Origin: Clostridia bacterium
GTDB lineage: Bacteria > Bacillota > Clostridia > Oscillospirales > Acutalibacteraceae
Assembly: GCA_017398425.1 (NCBI GenBank)
Contig: JAFQFZ010000049.1
Span: forward strand, 1 to 40,868
Length of the DNA stretch: 40,868 nt
Direction: 5' to 3'
Shown here: positions 6,917-40,868 of the stretch, piece by piece
How positions within the stretch are numbered: the first letter of the stretch is position 1
Layout of the letters: each line of letters begins with the position of its first letter
Position numbers and translations under genes: made by a program
The notes under the pieces: generated by a model
The model's database searches: none
What the model was told of the DNA's origin: nothing
Seen by the model: only the letters and a program-made list of their open reading frames with translations

Positions 6917-8686
6917 ATGAAAGTACGTTTGCAAAAAGCGGTTGCCCTGCTGATGAGCATCACGCTGTTGTGCGGCGCGATGACCTCGTGCAGTCCGAGC
7001 GCACCGCACGGTTCGTCGCTCACCGACACGGCGCGTGACGAACACAACAAAGCGTCCGTGAGCGCTCCCATTCCGCTGTCTGGCTTTGAGGATATCACCG
7101 ACGGGCAGGGAACCTGCACCTACCAAATGGTCGCGGAGTTTTCCGACACCTACACCGTCGTTTGCGACGATGCGACCATCCGTGTGACGACGGGCGGTGA
7201 GACGACCGAGGGAGAAGCGACGGTGAGGTGTGAGATCGAGGAAGGGGCGACGGTGCAGATCGCGGTGTCGGGCTTGCCCGCTTCGCAGAAGGTGCACGTC
7301 GACGTGATCCCGCAGGAGAACCGTCAGCGTCTGCCGTACAAAGCAAATTTCACCGTCGACCCGACGACGCTCGATACCGAGGGCACGAAAACCTCGCCCG
7401 CGCCGACCAAGATCGAATACCAAAAGCGTGAGGGCGGCACCTACGTCTACCTCAACAACCCCGAAAAGCTCCAGCCCGAAGACGTCGGGCAGGCGATCCT
7501 GCGCGATGAAGGTCTGTACGGCGACGTGCAGGTGACCTGGGAGCACAGCAACTACACCAATCAAGCGATCTACCTCGGCTATCAGCTGAAGAACGAGGGC
7601 ACGAGTGACGTGTATGTGACGGTGCAAAACGTCGGCTATCAGATCCAGGGCGAGTGGCTCGGTCAGCAGTCGTGGTCGGATTATTACAATAGGAAATTCG
7701 AATTGCCCGGCGACTACTTCACTTCGTCGGGCGCGGTGGCGGAGAAGTACGTGGGTCAGGATTTCATCGACTACACGCCGCGCGTGTTCCAGCCCGTGAC
7801 CTACCGCATTCCCGCCGGCGAATACATCTACGTCGTGGGCGGCACGTCGTCCGATGCGTTTAACCACGCCAACGTCGCTCAGACGGCCGATCAGCGCGTG
7901 TCACCGGGGCGTTGCACCAACGCCGTGGCGAAGATGTTCATCACGGGCGGCGATGTGACGGGCACGTTCTATTGCTACACCGACATAGCGCAGGTGCAAG
8001 CCGAACCCGAAGAGCAGGGCTACATCCTCATGCGCGACGGCACGCAATTCGGTCTGCAGTATAAGGGTGTCGATTATCACCAGGCGCTCATCGAGAGCAA
8101 TCCCGTGTTCTACGTCAACGACGATACGGAACCGGGTTCGCTGTCGGTTGTCTACGACACCTACTACGACGACCGCGTCTACTACGGCGTGAAGAACAAG
8201 CCTTACGCGGCCTACAAGAGCGAGAAGGACGAGTATCGCGGACGGCGCTGGAAGACCAACATCAATCCGCAAAGCTCCACGGCGGTCGGCGTGGATATGT
8301 CGACGTTCGAGTGTCTGACCACGGACGGCAAGACGGTGACCATCGACACCGAGCATGCCGACGGCACGGGCGATCCCGCGAACATCGGCAACTGGATGAT
8401 CGATTACCACGACAACATCACGCTTGTTAACCAGGGCGATCGTCCGCGCACCTTCACCATCAACAAGAATGCCAACGGTGCGCTGATGACCTACGTCGCC
8501 GACCGCGAGGGCAACGTGCTTGCGACCAAGTGCACCATCATTCCGCTCGAGGAGAGCAGTACCTCCGAGCAATGGGAGCTGTACGAGGTGACCGTGCCGC
8601 CGCACTCGACGGCGCAGTTTACCGTCAGCTTCCTGCTGATGGGCAACTCCTACGGCGGCGTTTCGCACTGGATCGAAGTGGAATAA
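6917..8686 (+). CDS. Unrecognised lipoprotein, 589 aa
   Basis: Start at ATG 6917, preceded by GAGGAGG that overlaps the stop codon of the GH26-like gene; the two are therefore one transcription unit. Residues 1-25 are a lipoprotein signal (MTS-C25). The mature part is rich in beta-strand-like, aromatic and Thr/Val segments with no membrane helix: an N-terminal Ser/Thr/Ala linker, a small beta domain (about 70-130), and a large region with WEHSNYTNQAIYLGYQLKN, a YVTVQNVGYQIQGEWLG segment and VTYRIPAGEYIYVVGG. I do not recognise a catalytic signature. Coupling to GH26-like lipoproteins makes a glycan-binding or accessory hydrolase role plausible, by context only. Confidence 0.7.
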   Translation: MKVRLQKAVALLMSITLLCGAMTSCSPSAPHGSSLTDTARDEHNKASVSAPIPLSGFEDITDGQGTCTYQMVAEFSDTYTVVCDDATIRVTTGGETTEGEATVRCEIEEGATVQIAVSGLPASQKVHVDVIPQENRQRLPYKANFTVDPTTLDTEGTKTSPAPTKIEYQKREGGTYVYLNNPEKLQPEDVGQAILRDEGLYGDVQVTWEHSNYTNQAIYLGYQLKNEGTSDVYVTVQNVGYQIQGEWLGQQSWSDYYNRKFELPGDYFTSSGAVAEKYVGQDFIDYTPRVFQPVTYRIPAGEYIYVVGGTSSDAFNHANVAQTADQRVSPGRCTNAVAKMFITGGDVTGTFYCYTDIAQVQAEPEEQGYILMRDGTQFGLQYKGVDYHQALIESNPVFYVNDDTEPGSLSVVYDTYYDDRVYYGVKNKPYAAYKSEKDEYRGRRWKTNINPQSSTAVGVDMSTFECLTTDGKTVTIDTEHADGTGDPANIGNWMIDYHDNITLVNQGDRPRTFTINKNANGALMTYVADREGNVLATKCTIIPLEESSTSEQWELYEVTVPPHSTAQFTVSFLLMGNSYGGVSHWIEVE

Positions 8687-8851
8687 GGGCAATGATATCG
8701 AGCGCAAAGGCGCTCGGTGATATAGTCCGCTTTGCGGACTGTGATATTCACGCCGTCGGCGTGAGTGATATATCGTTCTGTGAACGATGTGAAGGAGTCC
8801 GCTTCGCGGACAGAATGAAAAAACCGAGGTGCATTTTGCACCTCGGTTTTT
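8687..8851 (+). repeat. Tandem-hairpin repeat element, copy A (six stems, ends in terminator)
   Basis: Begins GGGCAATGATAT directly after a TAA stop. Hairpins in order: CGAGCGC/GCGCTCG (8699-8716), AGTCCGC/GCGGACT (8724-8740), TCACGCC/GGCGTGA (8748-8764), ATCGTTC/GAACGAT (8772-8788), TCCGC/GCGGA (8798-8810) and CCGAGGTGC/GCACCTCGG (8824-8846) followed by T5. The first four are separated by exact GTGATAT heptamers (8717, 8741, 8765); GTGAAGGAG precedes the fifth. Copies B (27675) and C (36496) share the plan, and copy D (40730) is a reduced form. No protein is encoded on either strand in a convincing way. Probable non-autonomous repeat that doubles as a 3' end. Confidence 0.9.
8824..8851 (+). 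terminator. Terminator hairpin of repeat copy A
   Basis: CCGAGGTGC/GCACCTCGG, 5-nt loop ATTTT, T5 tail, preceded by A6. It would end the transcript of the lipoprotein operon. Confidence 0.85.
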
Positions 8852-8857
8852 GTTATG

Positions 8858-9060
8858 GTAGGGGAGGGCTTCCACGCCCTCCCGCATGCCGATCAAACGG
8901 GCGCACACGGAGGTGCGCCCCTACGCGTAGGGCGCGGATTTATCCGCGCCGTGATCATCCCACCCCATTCGCTGTCGCGCGATGCACGACCGTTCCCTTG
9001 CGGGAAACGCGGCGGCACCAAGCCCTGCCCTACGTTATCCGATAGGATCGCGGGAACAGG
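8858..9060. repeat. Cluster of GTAGGG-associated palindromes
   Basis: After the terminator of copy A come three perfect palindromes: GGGAGGGC/GCCCTCCC (8862-8883), GGGCGCAC/GTGCGCCC (8899-8920) and GGCGCGGAT/ATCCGCGCC (8931-8950). Two are introduced by GTAGGG. At 9009-9035 lies a 27-nt block starting GCGGCGGCACC and ending CCCTACGT, found again at 27933-27959 with one mismatch and as a variant at 36729-36756. No coding potential of note; a mosaic of short interspersed repeats. Confidence 0.7.
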
Positions 9061-9282: not shown

Positions 9283-9640
9283 GCACGCGTATGTCTGATA
9301 GGTGAATTCTGCCTATTTTTCGTGGGTGTGCAGACTGCAAGATATGCGTTGAAGCGGGAGGTTGCGACCGAAAGGTCGGTTTTTCCGTGGAGTATGTCCG
9401 ATTTTAAACCGGGCGAACAAAGAAAGCTGCGAACAGTACGATAGAAACACGCCGTACCGCGCCGTAAAAGCGCGGAGAGTTGCCGCGGAGGTGCGCTTAG
9501 TACTGGCAGGACGATCGATTTGCGCCGGAAAACAAGCTCTGTATTCCGGTTTTTTTCGGGAAAACGGAAGAAACACCCGGCAGGGTGTGCAGAATCGGCG
9601 TCGCCCGCCAACTCAAAATTATTAAGGAGGCGTTTTCAAA
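9283..9640 (+). promoter_or_regulatory. Long structured leader of rpsJ with attenuator-like hairpins
   Basis: Non-coding leader. Visible elements: CGACC-GAAA-GGTCG followed by GTTTTT (9365-9384, a small GNRA-loop terminator-like hairpin); CCGCGC/GCGCGG (around 9454-9474); CCGGAA (9525-9530) pairing with TTCCGG (9544-9549) followed by T7 (9550-9556), an intrinsic-terminator shape; and an alternative pairing of TTCCGGTTTT (9544-9553) with AAAACGGAA (9561-9569) that would break it. Ribosomal protein leaders in other bacteria are commonly bound by a product of the operon (L4 in the E. coli S10 leader); whether that applies here is inference. Confidence 0.6.
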
Positions 9641-25472: not shown

Positions 25473-27668
25473 ATGAAAACCAACCTGAAAACCAAAGTCA
25501 GCGCGCTTTTGGCGGTGCTGATGATGCTCACCTGCATTCCGTGGACGACCCCTGTCACCGCGTCGGCGGCACAAACGGAAACGGTTTACAGCTACGATAT
25601 GTGCAACCAAAACGTAGGCGCCTACAATTACACCACCACGGTGGCAACGACAACCTCGACCCCCCTCTTCACAACGGCGAGCCGAACCAACTCCTCGGGC
25701 ACGCTGCCTACGCGTCCGTCGGATTTCACCCCGAGTTGGACCGAAGCGGTATCGTTGTTGCCGCCGGCGGCAAGTGAGTTTACGCTTCAAGAGGCCGGAG
25801 AAGGACAAATCACCGTCACACCGCAGGGCAGCGGGTATCGTTTTGAAGCGACGCAGGGATGGCCCTATGCGTCCTACGATATGGGAGAGAACGGCATTGC
25901 CGCTGACACAGAGTCGATGTACCTGAACTACGACATCGAGGTCTTGGACGGACAGACTTCGATGTATGTGTTCTTTGGTGGCAAGGATCCGCAAGGTGTG
26001 GTGAGCAACCGCTGGTTTGTATCGATCAATTACATTATCGATCCGCGGAATGTGGACGCTAATACCGGTAATGTGGAGAACAGCTTAACGAGAGGGCGTT
26101 ATGTTGGATCGGCGCCCATCAGCAGACTGAATTACGACGAACAACTGCTGGATGAGCAAGGCCGCATGGTGTTCTCCGGCCTCAAAATTATTGCCGAGGG
26201 TGATGACGATTCGGCGGATATCATCGTTCACGAGTTGAGCGTCGGCGGACAACGCTACGACCTGCCGTCTTTTCCGGTAGGCATCCGACCGGTTCTCTCG
26301 ACAACCACCATGTTCACACCGAGCCGTGGCAGAACAACGGTAACCACCACAACATCAAGGACAATCCAAACCAGCTTCTCGACTATGCCTACGCGTCCGT
26401 CGGATTACACCCCGAACTGGACCGAAACGGTGTCGCTGATGCCGGCGGCGGCAAGCGAGTTTACGCTTCACAATACCGACGGAGGACAAATCACCGTCAC
26501 ACCGCAGGGCAGCGGGTATCGCTTTGATGCAACGATGGAATGGCCCCAGGCCATGTACGTCCGGGGGAAAGACGGCATCGTCTGCAACGAAAACGACGAC
26601 CTGTATTTGAACTACGATTTTGAAGTGACCGCAGGCGGAGCGGAGATCGACTTGATTTACGGTGACCTTACGGACTATTTTATAGGCTATAAACCGGGAT
26701 ATTGCGAAAACCTCTCCACGATTGTCACACCGCACAACTATCTGAAGGAAATCCCTGTCGGTAAGTACAGCGGCTCTGTGAAGATCAGCAAGCTGAACTA
26801 CTACGAATATCTTAAGGACAGCGACGGGGACATGCTGTTCGCGGGTTGCGGTATCATTGCGGTCGGTCACGATGCCTCTGTGACCGTCAACGAACTGAGC
26901 ATCGGTAACAAGAAGTATACCGAGGTGACCGATCTCAGCCCCGAATGGACACAGACCGTGTCGCTGATGCCGGCAACCGCCAGTGAGTTTGTCGAGTCGG
27001 AAGGCGAAGGCGCCGGAAATGGCATCATTGAGGTGATGCACGAGGGCGAAGGCTATCGCTTTATGTCCAACGGCGGCTGGCCGGCAGCACACTACGTCGA
27101 TGAGGAAAACTGGATCTACGTCAACGAAAACGACGATCTGTACTTGAACTACGACATCGATGTGATTTCCGGCGAAACGAATGTGATCGTGTATTTCGGC
27201 GGACAGAATCCGAATGAATCGGCCGCTGAGGGGACGTTTGTGTCGATCAACGGCTTTATTGATCCTTTGTATGTCGATGAGAACGGCAGTGCTGTGGTCG
27301 ATCTTCCGGTCGGCAAGTACAGCGGTTCGGTGAAGATCAGCAATTTGACAATTGCCGCAAATTTGGTGGACGAGGACGGCGATGTGATGTTCTCGGGCTG
27401 TAGGATCTTTGCTGTTGACGAGAACGGCTCCGTGGTCGTCCGAGAACTGAGCATCGGTAAGAAAAAAGGCGAAGAGGAAGAAAAGCCGATCGGCGATATG
27501 AGCGGTGACGGTGAATTGAACACGATGGATGCCCTCTTGCTGTTTGCAGTGATCAACGGCGCCAAAACGGCGACCACTGAGCAACAGGCGCTTGCCGATT
27601 TCAACGGCGACGGCACGCTGAACATGATGGATGCGCTGTTGTTGTTTAAGCGGGTGTCCGGACAGTAA
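25473..27668 (+). CDS. Secreted protein with three repeated modules and C-terminal type I dockerin
   Basis: 731 residues. Signal peptide about 1-33 (ending near TASAAQT). Thr/Ser-rich linkers precede modules at about 80-270, 307-480 and 487-660. Each module runs from a PSWTExVSLxPAAxEF opening, through GYRFxxxxGWPxAxY and LYLNYDIEV, to an ELSIGxKKY close. I do not recognise the module; its all-beta look suggests a binding domain. Residues about 672-731 are a dockerin with two calcium loops, DMSGDGELNTMDALLLF and DFNGDGTLNMMDALLLF, which would dock onto a cohesin of a cellulosome-like scaffold. No scaffold or cohesin gene is seen in the window. Confidence 0.8.
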   Translation: MKTNLKTKVSALLAVLMMLTCIPWTTPVTASAAQTETVYSYDMCNQNVGAYNYTTTVATTTSTPLFTTASRTNSSGTLPTRPSDFTPSWTEAVSLLPPAASEFTLQEAGEGQITVTPQGSGYRFEATQGWPYASYDMGENGIAADTESMYLNYDIEVLDGQTSMYVFFGGKDPQGVVSNRWFVSINYIIDPRNVDANTGNVENSLTRGRYVGSAPISRLNYDEQLLDEQGRMVFSGLKIIAEGDDDSADIIVHELSVGGQRYDLPSFPVGIRPVLSTTTMFTPSRGRTTVTTTTSRTIQTSFSTMPTRPSDYTPNWTETVSLMPAAASEFTLHNTDGGQITVTPQGSGYRFDATMEWPQAMYVRGKDGIVCNENDDLYLNYDFEVTAGGAEIDLIYGDLTDYFIGYKPGYCENLSTIVTPHNYLKEIPVGKYSGSVKISKLNYYEYLKDSDGDMLFAGCGIIAVGHDASVTVNELSIGNKKYTEVTDLSPEWTQTVSLMPATASEFVESEGEGAGNGIIEVMHEGEGYRFMSNGGWPAAHYVDEENWIYVNENDDLYLNYDIDVISGETNVIVYFGGQNPNESAAEGTFVSINGFIDPLYVDENGSAVVDLPVGKYSGSVKISNLTIAANLVDEDGDVMFSGCRIFAVDENGSVVVRELSIGKKKGEEEEKPIGDMSGDGELNTMDALLLFAVINGAKTATTEQQALADFNGDGTLNMMDALLLFKRVSGQ
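25802..25840 (+). repeat. 39-bp exact repeat, also at 26483-26521
   Basis: The two blocks (AGGACAAATCACC to GGGTATCG) are identical in modules one and two of the dockerin protein, with further near-identity at 25705-25745 and 26388-26428. This points to recent duplication or conversion between the first two modules; the third is more diverged. Confidence 0.8.
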
Positions 27669-27674
27669 AGGACT

Positions 27675-27839
27675 GTGATATCGAGCGCTGTTGCGCTCGG
27701 TGATATAGCCGCTGAAGGCGGCTGTGATATTCCCGCTAGCGCGTTGAGTGATATATCGTCCTGCGGACGATGTGAAGGAGTCGCGCGTTGCGCGACAGAA
27801 TGATAAAGAAACGAGGTGCAAAAAGCACCTCGTTTTTTT
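27675..27839 (+). repeat. Tandem-hairpin repeat element, copy B
   Basis: Starts a few bases after the TAA of the dockerin gene. Stems: CGAGCGC/GCGCTCG (27682-27699, loop TGTT), AGCCGC/GCGGCT (27707-27723), a degenerate third stem around CGC-TA-GCG (27731-27747), ATCGTCC/GGACGAT (27755-27771), TCGCGC/GCGCGA (27781-27795) and the terminator ACGAGGTGC/GCACCTCGT (27811-27833) with T6. GTGATAT separators at 27675, 27700, 27724 and 27748, GTGAAGGAG at 27772. Compared with copy A, stems two, four and five have changed on both arms together. Confidence 0.9.
27811..27839 (+). terminator. Terminator hairpin of repeat copy B
   Basis: ACGAGGTGC, loop A5, GCACCTCGT, then T6. Confidence 0.85.
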
Positions 27840-27866
27840 GTGGGGAATGCGGCGGCATGCGCCTTG

Positions 27867-27959
27867 CCTCCCTCATTGAGGGAGGTGGATTTCGGCGAAG
27901 CCGAAAGACGGAGGGAGTTTTTGCACGAAAACGCGGCGGTACCAAGCCCTGCCCTACGT
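27867..27959. repeat. Further palindromic repeats behind copy B
   Basis: CCTCCCTC/GAGGGAGG (27867-27885), TTTCGGC-GAA-GCCGAAA (27890-27906), then the 27-nt GCGGCGG...CCCTACGT block (27933-27959) shared with 9009-9035. No gene seen. Confidence 0.65.
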
Positions 27960-35733: not shown

Positions 35734-36493
35734 AAAACAGTTCGGCTCGTATGAAAAGAGCGGGGCGTCTACGCTGAAAATGGGCGTGAAGATCTTCGGC
35801 TATGCGGTGCTGTCGGGTGTCGTGGCGCTGATGATGTTCTTCTCGCTCAACATGATCTCCAACGGGCTGTTCAGCACGCCGATCGGCTACAACCGCTGTG
35901 AAAAAGGCCCCAACGGTGAGAAGATCATTCTCGAGACCGTCTATTACGACGAGGATCACCCCGTCGGTTCGGAAAAGGAAACGGGCGACAGCGAAACGCG
36001 CTTCAACGAGACCATCGTCGGCGCCAAAAACGAGCTGTCGCAGGTGATGATCGTGGTGTTTGACGTGATCGAGCAGATCCTGATGCTCGCGGTGTTGTAC
36101 GTCATGTGTGGTTATTACGTTTACCGCGAGGGCGACCGCGACCGCAACCTTGAAAAGCATCACGACCGTGCGCCGACTCCTTGGCGCGGACTGTGGATCG
36201 GGTTGATCGCCTTCTTGCCCACACTGATCCCGATGATTCTGTTGATCCTCGGCAAGTGCGGTGTCAACGCCGCGTCGGCACAGTCGATCTATAACCTGCT
36301 GACGCCCTGCTTCTCGCCGCTCAATAACGCCATTGCGCCGATCGCGCAGTATACGACGGCAACCATGCTGGAGGCTTGGCAGTTGATCCTGTTGCTCCTC
36401 CTGCCGATGACGACGATCCCCGTGTGCGCGGTGAGCTACACGCTCGGTCACAAGCGCGTGTTCAAAAAGCTGCTGAAGAAAAAACGCGCGTGA
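35726..36493 (+). CDS. Four-helix membrane protein of unknown function
   Basis: 255 residues. I start at ATG 35726, which has AGGAGG at 35711-35716 and overlaps the end of the SGNH lipoprotein gene by 8 bp; the frame is open further up, but that part is out-of-frame coding sequence of the lipoprotein. Helices at about 22-44 (GYAVLSGVVALMMFFSLNMI), 105-130, 155-178 (GLWIGLIAFLPTLIPMILLI) and 212-235 (LILLLLLPMTTIPVCAVSY). A hydrophilic outside loop (about 50-100) and a Lys-rich C-terminus. No known family recognised. Tight coupling suggests it works with the lipoprotein esterase. Confidence 0.75.
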   Translation: MNEKQFGSYEKSGASTLKMGVKIFGYAVLSGVVALMMFFSLNMISNGLFSTPIGYNRCEKGPNGEKIILETVYYDEDHPVGSEKETGDSETRFNETIVGAKNELSQVMIVVFDVIEQILMLAVLYVMCGYYVYREGDRDRNLEKHHDRAPTPWRGLWIGLIAFLPTLIPMILLILGKCGVNAASAQSIYNLLTPCFSPLNNAIAPIAQYTTATMLEAWQLILLLLLPMTTIPVCAVSYTLGHKRVFKKLLKKKRA

Positions 36494-36495
36494 TA

Positions 36496-36662
36496 GGGCA
36501 ATGATATCGAACGCAAAGGTGTTCGGTGATATAGTCGCCTTGAGGCGACTGTGATATTCACGCATAAAGCGTGAGTGATATATCGTTCTGCGAACGATGT
36601 GAAGGAGTCCGCTCACGCGGACGGAATGAAAAAAACGAGGTGCATTCTGCACCTCGTTTTTT
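36496..36662 (+). repeat. Tandem-hairpin repeat element, copy C
   Basis: Starts GGGCAATGATAT three bases after a TGA stop. Stems: CGAACGC/GTGTTCG (36508-36525, one G-T wobble), AGTCGCC/GGCGACT (36533-36550), TCACGC/GCGTGA (36558-36574), ATCGTTC/GAACGAT (36582-36598), TCCGC/GCGGA (36608-36621) and terminator ACGAGGTGC/GCACCTCGT (36635-36657) with T5. GTGATAT separators at 36526, 36551 and 36575; GTGAAGGAG at 36599. Same orientation and same position relative to a gene end as copies A and B. Confidence 0.9.
36635..36662 (+). terminator. Terminator hairpin of repeat copy C
   Basis: ACGAGGTGC, loop ATTCT, GCACCTCGT, then T5. Confidence 0.85.
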
Positions 36663-36756
36663 GTTGTGATATGTGAGGATTGCGTAGGGAACGGCCTATG
36701 TGCCGTTCCGTTTCGGTGCACCTGCGCCGCGGCGGCACCAAGGCGCCGCCCTACGT
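36663..36756. repeat. GTAGGG-palindrome behind copy C
   Basis: TTGTTGTGATATGTGAGG then CGTAGGGAACGG, a palindrome GGAACGG/CCGTTCC (36688-36709), and a variant of the GCGGCGG...CCCTACGT block (36729-36756). The first part is repeated almost exactly behind copy D (40823-40868). Confidence 0.7.
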
Positions 36757-39991: not shown

Positions 39992-40710
39992 AACGGATAG
40001 GGGCGATTTGTTTGATGTTGACGGTGTTGCTCGGCGGATGCGCGGCAACACCCGCCGCGCCGTCGCTTGAAGAACGGCTCGTGACCATCGACGGCGCGCA
40101 AAACACGCGCGACATCGGCGGTGTTGTCACGCTTGACGGGCGCACCGTCAAAACGGGAATGCTCGTGCGCGGTACGGAGCTCGACGGGCTCGGGGATGCG
40201 CGGTTTTGCGTCGATGAAGAGGCGCGGGATGCGGCGATGGAGATGTTCGGCTTTGTGTGCGATTTCGATCTGCGTGCGGCGGAGCTTGACGGATACGTCT
40301 CGCCGCTCGGTGACGAGGTGACCCACACGTTTTTTGCCGCGCCGATGTATGAAGAGGTGTTTGAAGAGGACGGAAAGGCGGCGCTGAGGCGGATGTTTAC
40401 GGCGCTTGCCGACGGAGCGAACTACCCGATGTATCTGCACTGCACGTACGGTGCCGACCGCACGGGTACGCTGGTGTTCCTGCTACAAGGTGTGCTCGGT
40501 GTGTCGCAGGAGGATATGCTGCGTGAATACCGCTTGACGGCGCGCACTTTTCCCGCGTATCTCACAAACGGCGATCTGCAACCGTTGCTTGACGGACTCA
40601 GCGCCTACGAGGGCAATACGCTCGGCGAACGCATCGAAACGTTTTTGCGGACCGATGTCGGCGTGACGGCGGAGGAGCTGGAATCGATTCGCGCGGTGTT
40701 GCTGGAATGA
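39988..40710 (+). CDS. Tyrosine/serine phosphatase-like lipoprotein (Y_phosphatase3 type)
   Basis: 240 residues. Lipoprotein signal LGG-C18 puts it outside the membrane. NTRDIGGVVTLDGRTVKTGM followed by VRGTELDGL is the start of this phosphatase family, and HCTYGADRTG is the CX5R active site with nucleophile Cys152 and Arg158. Acts on phosphotyrosine or other phosphoesters; target unknown. The start overlaps the stop of the regulator (ATGA), so it is translationally coupled to what may be a truncated gene. Confidence 0.85.
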   Translation: MKRIGAICLMLTVLLGGCAATPAAPSLEERLVTIDGAQNTRDIGGVVTLDGRTVKTGMLVRGTELDGLGDARFCVDEEARDAAMEMFGFVCDFDLRAAELDGYVSPLGDEVTHTFFAAPMYEEVFEEDGKAALRRMFTALADGANYPMYLHCTYGADRTGTLVFLLQGVLGVSQEDMLREYRLTARTFPAYLTNGDLQPLLDGLSAYEGNTLGERIETFLRTDVGVTAEELESIRAVLLE

Positions 40711-40729: not shown

Positions 40730-40823
40730 GGGCAATGAAGAATGAAAAGTGAAGAGTGAAGAATGAAGGAGTCGGCTTCGCCGACGGAATGAAAAACCCG
40801 AGGTGCGTTGCACCTCGGGTTTT
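40730..40823 (+). repeat. Tandem-hairpin repeat element, copy D (reduced)
   Basis: Starts GGGCAATGAAG like copies A and C, but the four GTGATAT-hairpin units are replaced by a degenerate AAGTGAAGAGTGAAGAATGAAG stretch. The last two stems remain: TCGGC-TTC-GCCGA (40772-40784) and terminator CCCGAGGTGC/GCACCTCGGG (40797-40819) with T4. Both stems differ in sequence from A-C but are fully paired. Confidence 0.8.
40797..40823 (+). terminator. Terminator hairpin of repeat copy D
   Basis: CCCGAGGTGC, loop GTT, GCACCTCGGG, then T4. Behind it the sequence TTGTTGTGATATGTGAGG and a GGAACGG/CCGTTCC palindrome run to the window end. Confidence 0.8.
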
Positions 40824-40868
40824 GTTGTGATATGTGAGGATTGCGTAGGGAACGGATTCATCCGTTCC

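Follow-up and report, generated by a model that had tools for sequence, protein, structure and literature searches.

Hairpin-bearing heptamer arrays behind protein genes of a Clostridia bacterium are relatives of Gut-1 RNA, and arrays of this kind go with S23 genes

The passages on Gut-1 (Rfam RF01706) in Weinberg et al. 2010 (PMC2864571) present this motif as a presumed noncoding RNA found in human gut sequences only, and give no function for it. In the sections of a Coxiella paper that deal with the IVS (PMC4990558), heptameric repeats (GACAGAT), variable in number among strains, stand before the S23p ORF, and inverted repeats surround this ORF; the same sections describe the function of S23 proteins as not known and cite one S23p as a homopentamer (Lin et al. 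2006). Also, the cyanobacterial STRR, as a passage describes them (PMC2670836), are usually 7-bp tandem units, intergenic and capable of forming hairpins, with a function that is likewise not known. Finally, a passage concerning the DGR protein Avd (PMC10053308) notes that PF05635, the family of S23, resembles this protein and seems homologous to it. The results presented here join Gut-1 and S23, two families described without a function, by a link that was unexpected.

The window, that is, the whole stretch of 40,868 nucleotides that was analysed, lies on contig C42 of the source genome (G000; 1.68 Mb in 70 contigs, 79.4% complete). It contains three full copies of a modular repeat, starting at 8690, 27673 and 36499, which were aligned end to end and follow the same plan: five separators, of which four are GTGATAT-like (CAATGATAT or CTGTGATAT, then three GTGATAT) and the last is GTGAAGGAG, a hairpin filling each of the four gaps; a fifth hairpin and then a terminator complete the copy. 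All three lie directly 3' of a same-strand stop codon, at a gap of 3-6 nt. A fourth copy is hairpinless, its five separators having no hairpins between them.

8684-8686, + strand: stop codon TAA of the 594-aa upstream ORF; the array of copy 1 begins 3 nt later
8690-8788, + strand: copy 1, separators 1-4 and hairpins H1-H4; the Gut-1 match covers 8690-8776 (49.5 bits)
8690-8698, 8717-8723, 8741-8747 and 8765-8771, + strand: copy 1 separators, the first being CAATGATAT and the other three GTGATAT
8699-8716, 8724-8740, 8748-8764 and 8772-8788, + strand: copy 1 hairpins H1, H2, H3 and H4
8789-8797, + strand: copy 1 fifth separator GTGAAGGAG, Shine-Dalgarno-like
8797-8811, + strand: copy 1 fifth hairpin, from fold and covariation
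8818-8851, + strand: copy 1 intrinsic terminator, CCGAGGTGC stem and T-run
27673-27798, + strand: copy 2, five separators and H1-H5, 3' of a 731-aa ORF ending at 27668; Gut-1 38.8 bits
27806-27839, + strand: copy 2 terminator
36499-36625, + strand: copy 3, five separators and H1-H5, 3' of a 308-aa ORF ending at 36493; Gut-1 45.0 bits
36630-36662, + strand: copy 3 terminator
40733-40824, + strand: copy 4, hairpinless, five TGAA heptamers (CAATGAAGAATGAAAAGTGAAGAGTGAAGAATGAAGGAG), then a hairpin and a terminator; the upstream ORF ends at 40710

The end-to-end alignment, the excess of GTGATAT and the fold of copy 1 bear out the single plan proposed for the three copies in a preliminary description of this DNA, and with it the notion of a dispersed repeat built of modules, whose separators hardly change while its stems vary. 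The window has 16 occurrences of GTGATAT where 2.02 would be expected, a count that none of 100 dinucleotide shuffles attained, and the fold of copy 1 (-87.3 kcal/mol, z -9.45, equalled by 0 of 200 shuffles) consists of five hairpins and the terminator hairpin. The naming of the separators after this heptamer has to be amended in one respect, as they are enriched and near-constant but the exact heptamer is found three, four and three times in copies 1, 2 and 3, the first separator of copies 1 and 3 being ATGATAT. Moreover, the array of copy 1, formerly placed at 8687, starts with CAATGATAT at 8690, 3 nt past the stop codon. A CRISPR array consists of identical repeats of ~25-40 nt with unrelated spacers; the window copies have a constant part of 7 nt and palindromic gaps, and they are not CRISPR, as had been stated. 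Other elements of the window are an S10-Clostridia ribosomal protein leader at 9341-9416 (RF03136, 49.8 bits), 5' of a ribosomal protein operon, and a different dispersed palindromic repeat, GCCTTGCCTCCCTCATTGAGGGAGG...GGAGGGAG, at 27862-27917, which lies 3' of the copy 2 module and also follows several other copies.

Covariation of the stems supports a folded strand. It was measured over 13 copies, five from G000 and eight from the sister species G002, on the structure of copy 1, a choice that makes the test favour this copy; the entries left out of the 18 collected are C3b (degenerate tail), C88, C219 and C37 (all three incomplete, C219 and C37 also lacking the start pattern) and one duplicate locus. 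In this set 88.4% of cells are paired and both sides have changed in 21 of 34 pairs, as compared with 1-7 pairs in slid controls, and the covariation score is 0.397, whereas shuffled sets give 0.178. Helix 2 is the weakest of the set, with 67.1% of cells paired, and of the five measures the one for further pair types is not above the shuffles (29 against a shuffled mean of 30.7).

The repeat had also been taken for an undescribed one, a view that an Rfam family match or a lack of further copies in the genome was said to overturn. In substance, an Rfam match is what was found, and the repeat belongs with Gut-1 RNA. Copies 1, 2 and 3 score 49.5, 38.8 and 45.0 bits against RF01706, none of them reaching the cut-off of 50 bits; copies 1 and 3 align over model positions 1-77 of 77 and have in common with the model a CAAUGA start, UGAAAU or UGAUAU separators and three paired stems. 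Copies of the same type in G002, namely C118, C229, C35, C43, C216, C106 (GTGAAAT) and C177 (GTGATAT), score 52.1-56.9 bits, above the cut-off, as do two other copies of G000 (60.7 and 58.8 bits). Because RF01706 is matched just below its cut-off and same-type sister copies lie above it, this is not a new RNA class, and the feature of the window is a Gut-1 relative that stands formally just under the threshold. With strict filters in both groups, Gut-1 is present in 90 of 200 genomes of the bacterial family (71 of them above cut-off) but in 1 of 198 others across the phylum, and in control genomes a signal was seen in 1 or, in a second search, 2 of 14, none above cut-off. In a literature collection with few subscription journals, the name 'Gut-1 RNA' gave no paper.

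Further copies are abundant. Searched at the DNA level, G000 has 45 matches and G002 17, while G001 and G003 have none; 28 of the 45 correspond to 27 modules that were inspected, the remaining 17 matching the terminator part of the query only. Contigs C42, C68, C61 and C3 end or begin in a common sequence of array plus flank (window 40733-40868; L021, L023, L027); the assembly apparently breaks at these repeats, so that the copy number is a lower bound. Considering same-strand ORFs only, 20 of the 27 modules begin within ~30 nt after an ORF stop codon or supply that stop, three are without an ORF (contig ends) and four do not fit (C22c, C35, C9 and C63). By eye, five separators are present in 17 of the 19 arrays wholly in view (6 with hairpins, 10 without, their separators being spaced at 7 nt, and 1 hybrid), the exceptions being C59 with two and C35 with three, and the other 8 modules are tail-only or cut. 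In the hybrid, C64 (L029), hairpin 3 is absent and its separator is kept; a lost hairpin with a retained separator is also seen, by eye, in L183 and L195. Most modules run into a terminator, and the one described earlier as built in is indeed present in the three full copies, but it is not a fixed part of the module, since C15, C22b and C3c have a different stem and G002 has several. Presence of the array varies as well, here between species. The gene before the C15 copy, which on our own reading of its sequence appears thioesterase-like, has its best matches in G002 (64% identity) and G001 (61%), both without an array 3' of the gene, and no match in G003. This comparison shows lineage-specific presence of the array at one locus, not its mode of movement.

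Two layouts can be distinguished. In the layout of the window (type B), a stop codon is followed by a single array, the tail and a terminator. In type A, a left array and then an inverted right array come after a terminator, and the 3' end of a tRNA or tmRNA gene lies no more than ~45 nt upstream at 17 of 29 loci of this kind in the wider family. A near-identical unit of terminator plus array follows the CCA end in six genomes, this end belonging to tRNA-Ser in three, to tmRNA in two and to a tRNA-like sequence in the sixth (L105). The right side has two or more inverted occurrences of the left separator in 39 of 45 type A loci, and two on the same strand in 0 of 45 (one of 46 was dropped as cut, and among tied 6-mers the one with most inverted matches was taken). 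Since type A arrays often lie, by eye, between a terminator and the next gene, their transcription is uncertain. Conserved sequences were seen 3' of the right array, AATCGTTAAAA/AATCGTTGA repeats in three genomes (L097, L100, L115) and a block GAGTTCGAA-TCATACGC...TATCTTTTTTGTAG in L088, L089, L092, L099 and L141. At L120 (1390-1760), an orphan Gut-1 element lies between direct repeats of 48 identical bases; past these the likeness continues, with a single mismatch, as far as a tRNA-like CCGCCA. Target-site duplication as a general rule was considered and rejected, direct repeats being present at only 3 of 36 orphan loci (L106, L111 and L120) and at 9 of 81 S23 genes, where several are the heptamers themselves.

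A new result is that in this bacterial family Gut-1 arrays go with S23/23S-IVP genes (PF05635), and this link is well supported in the samples examined. By eye, an S23-like ORF lies 3' of a type A array at 5 of 46 loci (L095, L112, L119, L121 and L124), and the PF05635 search confirms two of the five, at the L112 and L119 places. In 120 family genomes from 119 genera, a draw reconstructed from a list with only part of its negatives, PF05635 was found in 53, with 121 matches; 41 genomes have both Gut-1 and S23, 12 Gut-1 only, 12 S23 only and 55 neither (p 7e-11, phylogeny ignored). The S23 genes examined number 51 of these 121; an array, inverted or plain tandem 7-mer, precedes 40 of the 51, against 5 of 71 other ORFs. 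This count divides into 22 of the 30 loci given by the search itself and 18 of the 21 added by us, the former being fairer because at least three of the added loci were known to be near arrays. Two-strand (inverted) arrays precede 24 of the 51 genes and plain tandem arrays of period 7 precede 20, as compared with lag-7 arrays at 0 of the 71 control ORFs, and other periods (3-6, 8-13) give at most one array. Across the phylum, lag-7 arrays are present at 12 of 30 S23 loci examined (of 62 matches) and lag 11 at two. Of 24 ORFs taken as an initial control within the S23 loci themselves, one had two-strand arrays. Moreover, inverted matches 13 nt or longer were found on the two sides of S23 genes, at 16 of 49 in the family (two loci were too short) and 12 of 30 in the phylum, as compared with 13 of 198 control ORFs, with several Y1 genes among them. 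The controls are modest, for Y1 loci, which bear inverted repeats of their own, supplied all 71 ORFs of the smaller set and some of the 198.

The separators linked to S23 are alike within an element and very different between elements (GTGAAGC, GTGATGC, GTTATAT, ATGAATA, GGAATTA and others), GTGATAT itself being seen by eye in the arrays of L176, L181 and L197. S23 proteins that are 60-74% identical may have heptamers in which as many as 4 of 7 letters are unlike; co-evolution of heptamer and S23 protein was tried and set aside as weak (rho -0.16 over 496 pairs). At L174 (1346-1930), an S23 gene with inverted heptamer arrays lies inside a broken tRNA-Leu and has on both sides a direct repeat of 45 bp that comes from the 5' half of this tRNA. 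On S23 and heptamer arrays, the Coxiella paper (PMC4990558) was the only one on the topic among the papers listed from a collection with few subscription journals; those listed for S23 together with Avd dealt with DGRs. The window copies themselves are single arrays without an ORF, and no inverted repeats around an S23 ORF were found there; nor does any of them stand upstream of a PF05635 gene, a search of G000 (79.4% complete) having given no match.

The number five recurs in these arrays. Plain arrays, found at 34 of 81 S23 genes with a filter that disfavours very short ones, have a median of 5.0 units (5 units in 16, 4 in 5, 6 in 4, 7 in 3 and more in 6), 18 of the 34 not rounding to five. 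Gut-1-type left arrays have four hairpins, and therefore five separators, in 34 of 43 cases, three hairpins in 6, two in 2 and five in 1; at least three of the six three-hairpin cases look misparsed, and L090, L106 and L113 were left out. Also, the PDB entry nearest to S23 (2rld) has five chains.

We give a probability of about 0.5 to the reading that the window copies are orphan, hairpin-bearing heptamer arrays of the Gut-1/S23-IVS class, located in 3' UTRs, from which we infer a five-site landing strip for S23. The array would form the 3' UTR in the transcript of the gene before it, and its hairpins, which would be tolerated, would loop out and leave five unpaired heptamers; these would form, or would once have formed, a strip on which the S23 ring lands with one heptamer per subunit. 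TRAP, a ring protein that binds spaced RNA triplets, would be a partial parallel. In full elements the array would let S23 hold its own transcript, whereas in the window copies the strip would have been kept and the gene lost, such orphans spreading without it. Then, GTGAAGGAG...ATGAAA would perhaps be a relic of the ribosome-binding site and start of S23: by eye, GTGAAGGAG-hairpin-GGAATGAAA at the tail resembles the start region of an S23 gene that was lost, a reading suggested by the S23-linked arrays, which often run, also by eye, into AAGG and ATG. Pentavalent binding by S23 is a testable guess. Its main difficulty is the variability of the heptamers between similar S23 proteins, which speaks against strict sequence recognition; moreover, the plain arrays also form inverted repeats around the gene, so that pairing and not protein binding could be what is selected, and the genomes with Gut-1 only and with S23 only (12 each), like the missing PF05635 match in G000, count against the S23 reading. 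A wider proposal is tentative, and we hold it to be rather doubtful: Gut-1 arrays, plain heptamer arrays and the 23S IVS would be one selfish ribonucleoprotein class, in which a pentameric, Avd-like S23 ring would bind five heptamers (35 nt) of its own transcript, the hairpins would be looped-out ornaments, and the orphan arrays would be non-autonomous members in 3' UTRs and behind tRNA terminators. The linkage of array and gene, with five separators set against the five subunits reported, leads to one concrete binding test, which bears directly on Gut-1 and S23 and perhaps on STRRs.

A different explanation is that the host has domesticated a 3'-UTR module that now acts only as an insulator or stabiliser of the mRNA 3' end beside a terminator, with no role for S23. 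The position of 20 of the 27 G000 modules close behind a stop codon, the terminators that most of them reach, the covariation of the stems and the missing PF05635 match in G000 are all consistent with it. However, the hairpinless forms retain five heptamers, which is odd if the hairpins are the working part, presence is lineage-specific at the one locus compared, and type A copies are seemingly outside transcripts; this explanation appears unlikely. Still less probable, in our judgement, are functionless palindromic heptamer arrays, selfish or neutral, kept alike by slippage, conversion and recent copying. Heptamers alike inside an element and different between elements, near-identical copies at different RNA genes, and the selfish role that a passage of PMC4990558 states for a 23S IVS would fit such an origin, but slippage hardly explains five separators both with and without hairpins, nor compensatory changes in the stems. 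That Gut-1 is a free-standing small RNA and the window copies its genes is very improbable: Rfam gives its type as 'Gene; sRNA' and covariation is strong, whereas a single genome has it in numerous copies whose stems vary, the arrays of the window begin 3-6 nt past stop codons and leave no separate promoter region, and the motif goes on past the Rfam model, with a fifth separator, a second array in inverted orientation, or the two together. Least probable of all, to the point of being rejected, is a REP/BIME-type repeat moved by a RAYT (Y1) transposase. G000 has three divergent Y1 genes, and Gut-1 is present in 26 of 39 genomes with a divergent best Y1 hit against 64 of 161 others (p 0.004, phylogeny ignored; a weak genome-level association and not causal evidence), but several Gut-1-rich genomes (e.g. 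G006 and G007) have no Y1 hit, no TGAAAT- or GTGATAT-type array is listed for 20 Y1 loci, in a scan that took in up to 3 kb on each side, where membership would place copies flanking or accompanying a RAYT gene, and the two G000 Y1 genes that were read go with GTAG palindromes, a different repeat family.

The reading of the window copies as orphan arrays of the Gut-1/S23-IVS class can then be placed among known systems. GTAG palindromes (GTAGGGGAGGGC..GCCCTCCCG and relatives) lie between genes of the window at 8858-8945 and 36684-36711 and also inside two Y1 transposase-like genes of G000 (L149 and L150), a separate REP/RAYT-like system which we take to be GTAG-REP/RAYT. The likeness to it consists in dispersed palindromes of the same genome, and the difference in its tetranucleotide GTAG and its place inside Y1 genes. 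At L157 (2679-3443), a 254-aa Y1 transposase-like gene has CAATCAGGGGACGGTTCTGTGATTG repeats close by, and inverted matches flank genes of about this size in other Y1 loci. The pneumococcal BOX elements are modular repeats with variable internal units, and the window copies resemble this description. By description, too, the STRR are similar in their 7-bp tandem units, their intergenic position and their ability to form a hairpin. The likeness to the 23S rRNA IVS with its S23p ORF lies in the S23 loci of other genomes, with tandem heptamers before the ORF and inverted repeats around it, whereas the window copies are without an ORF, have hairpins interleaved, and stand after protein genes, in 3' UTRs and not in rRNA; insertion in 23S rRNA and excision by RNase III would mark an IVS. 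Finally, the window copies share with Gut-1 the CAAUGA start and hairpins parted by UGAAAU-type separators; they differ in that they use GTGATAT, score below the cut-off, and extend to a fifth separator, a fifth hairpin and a terminator in the 3' UTR.
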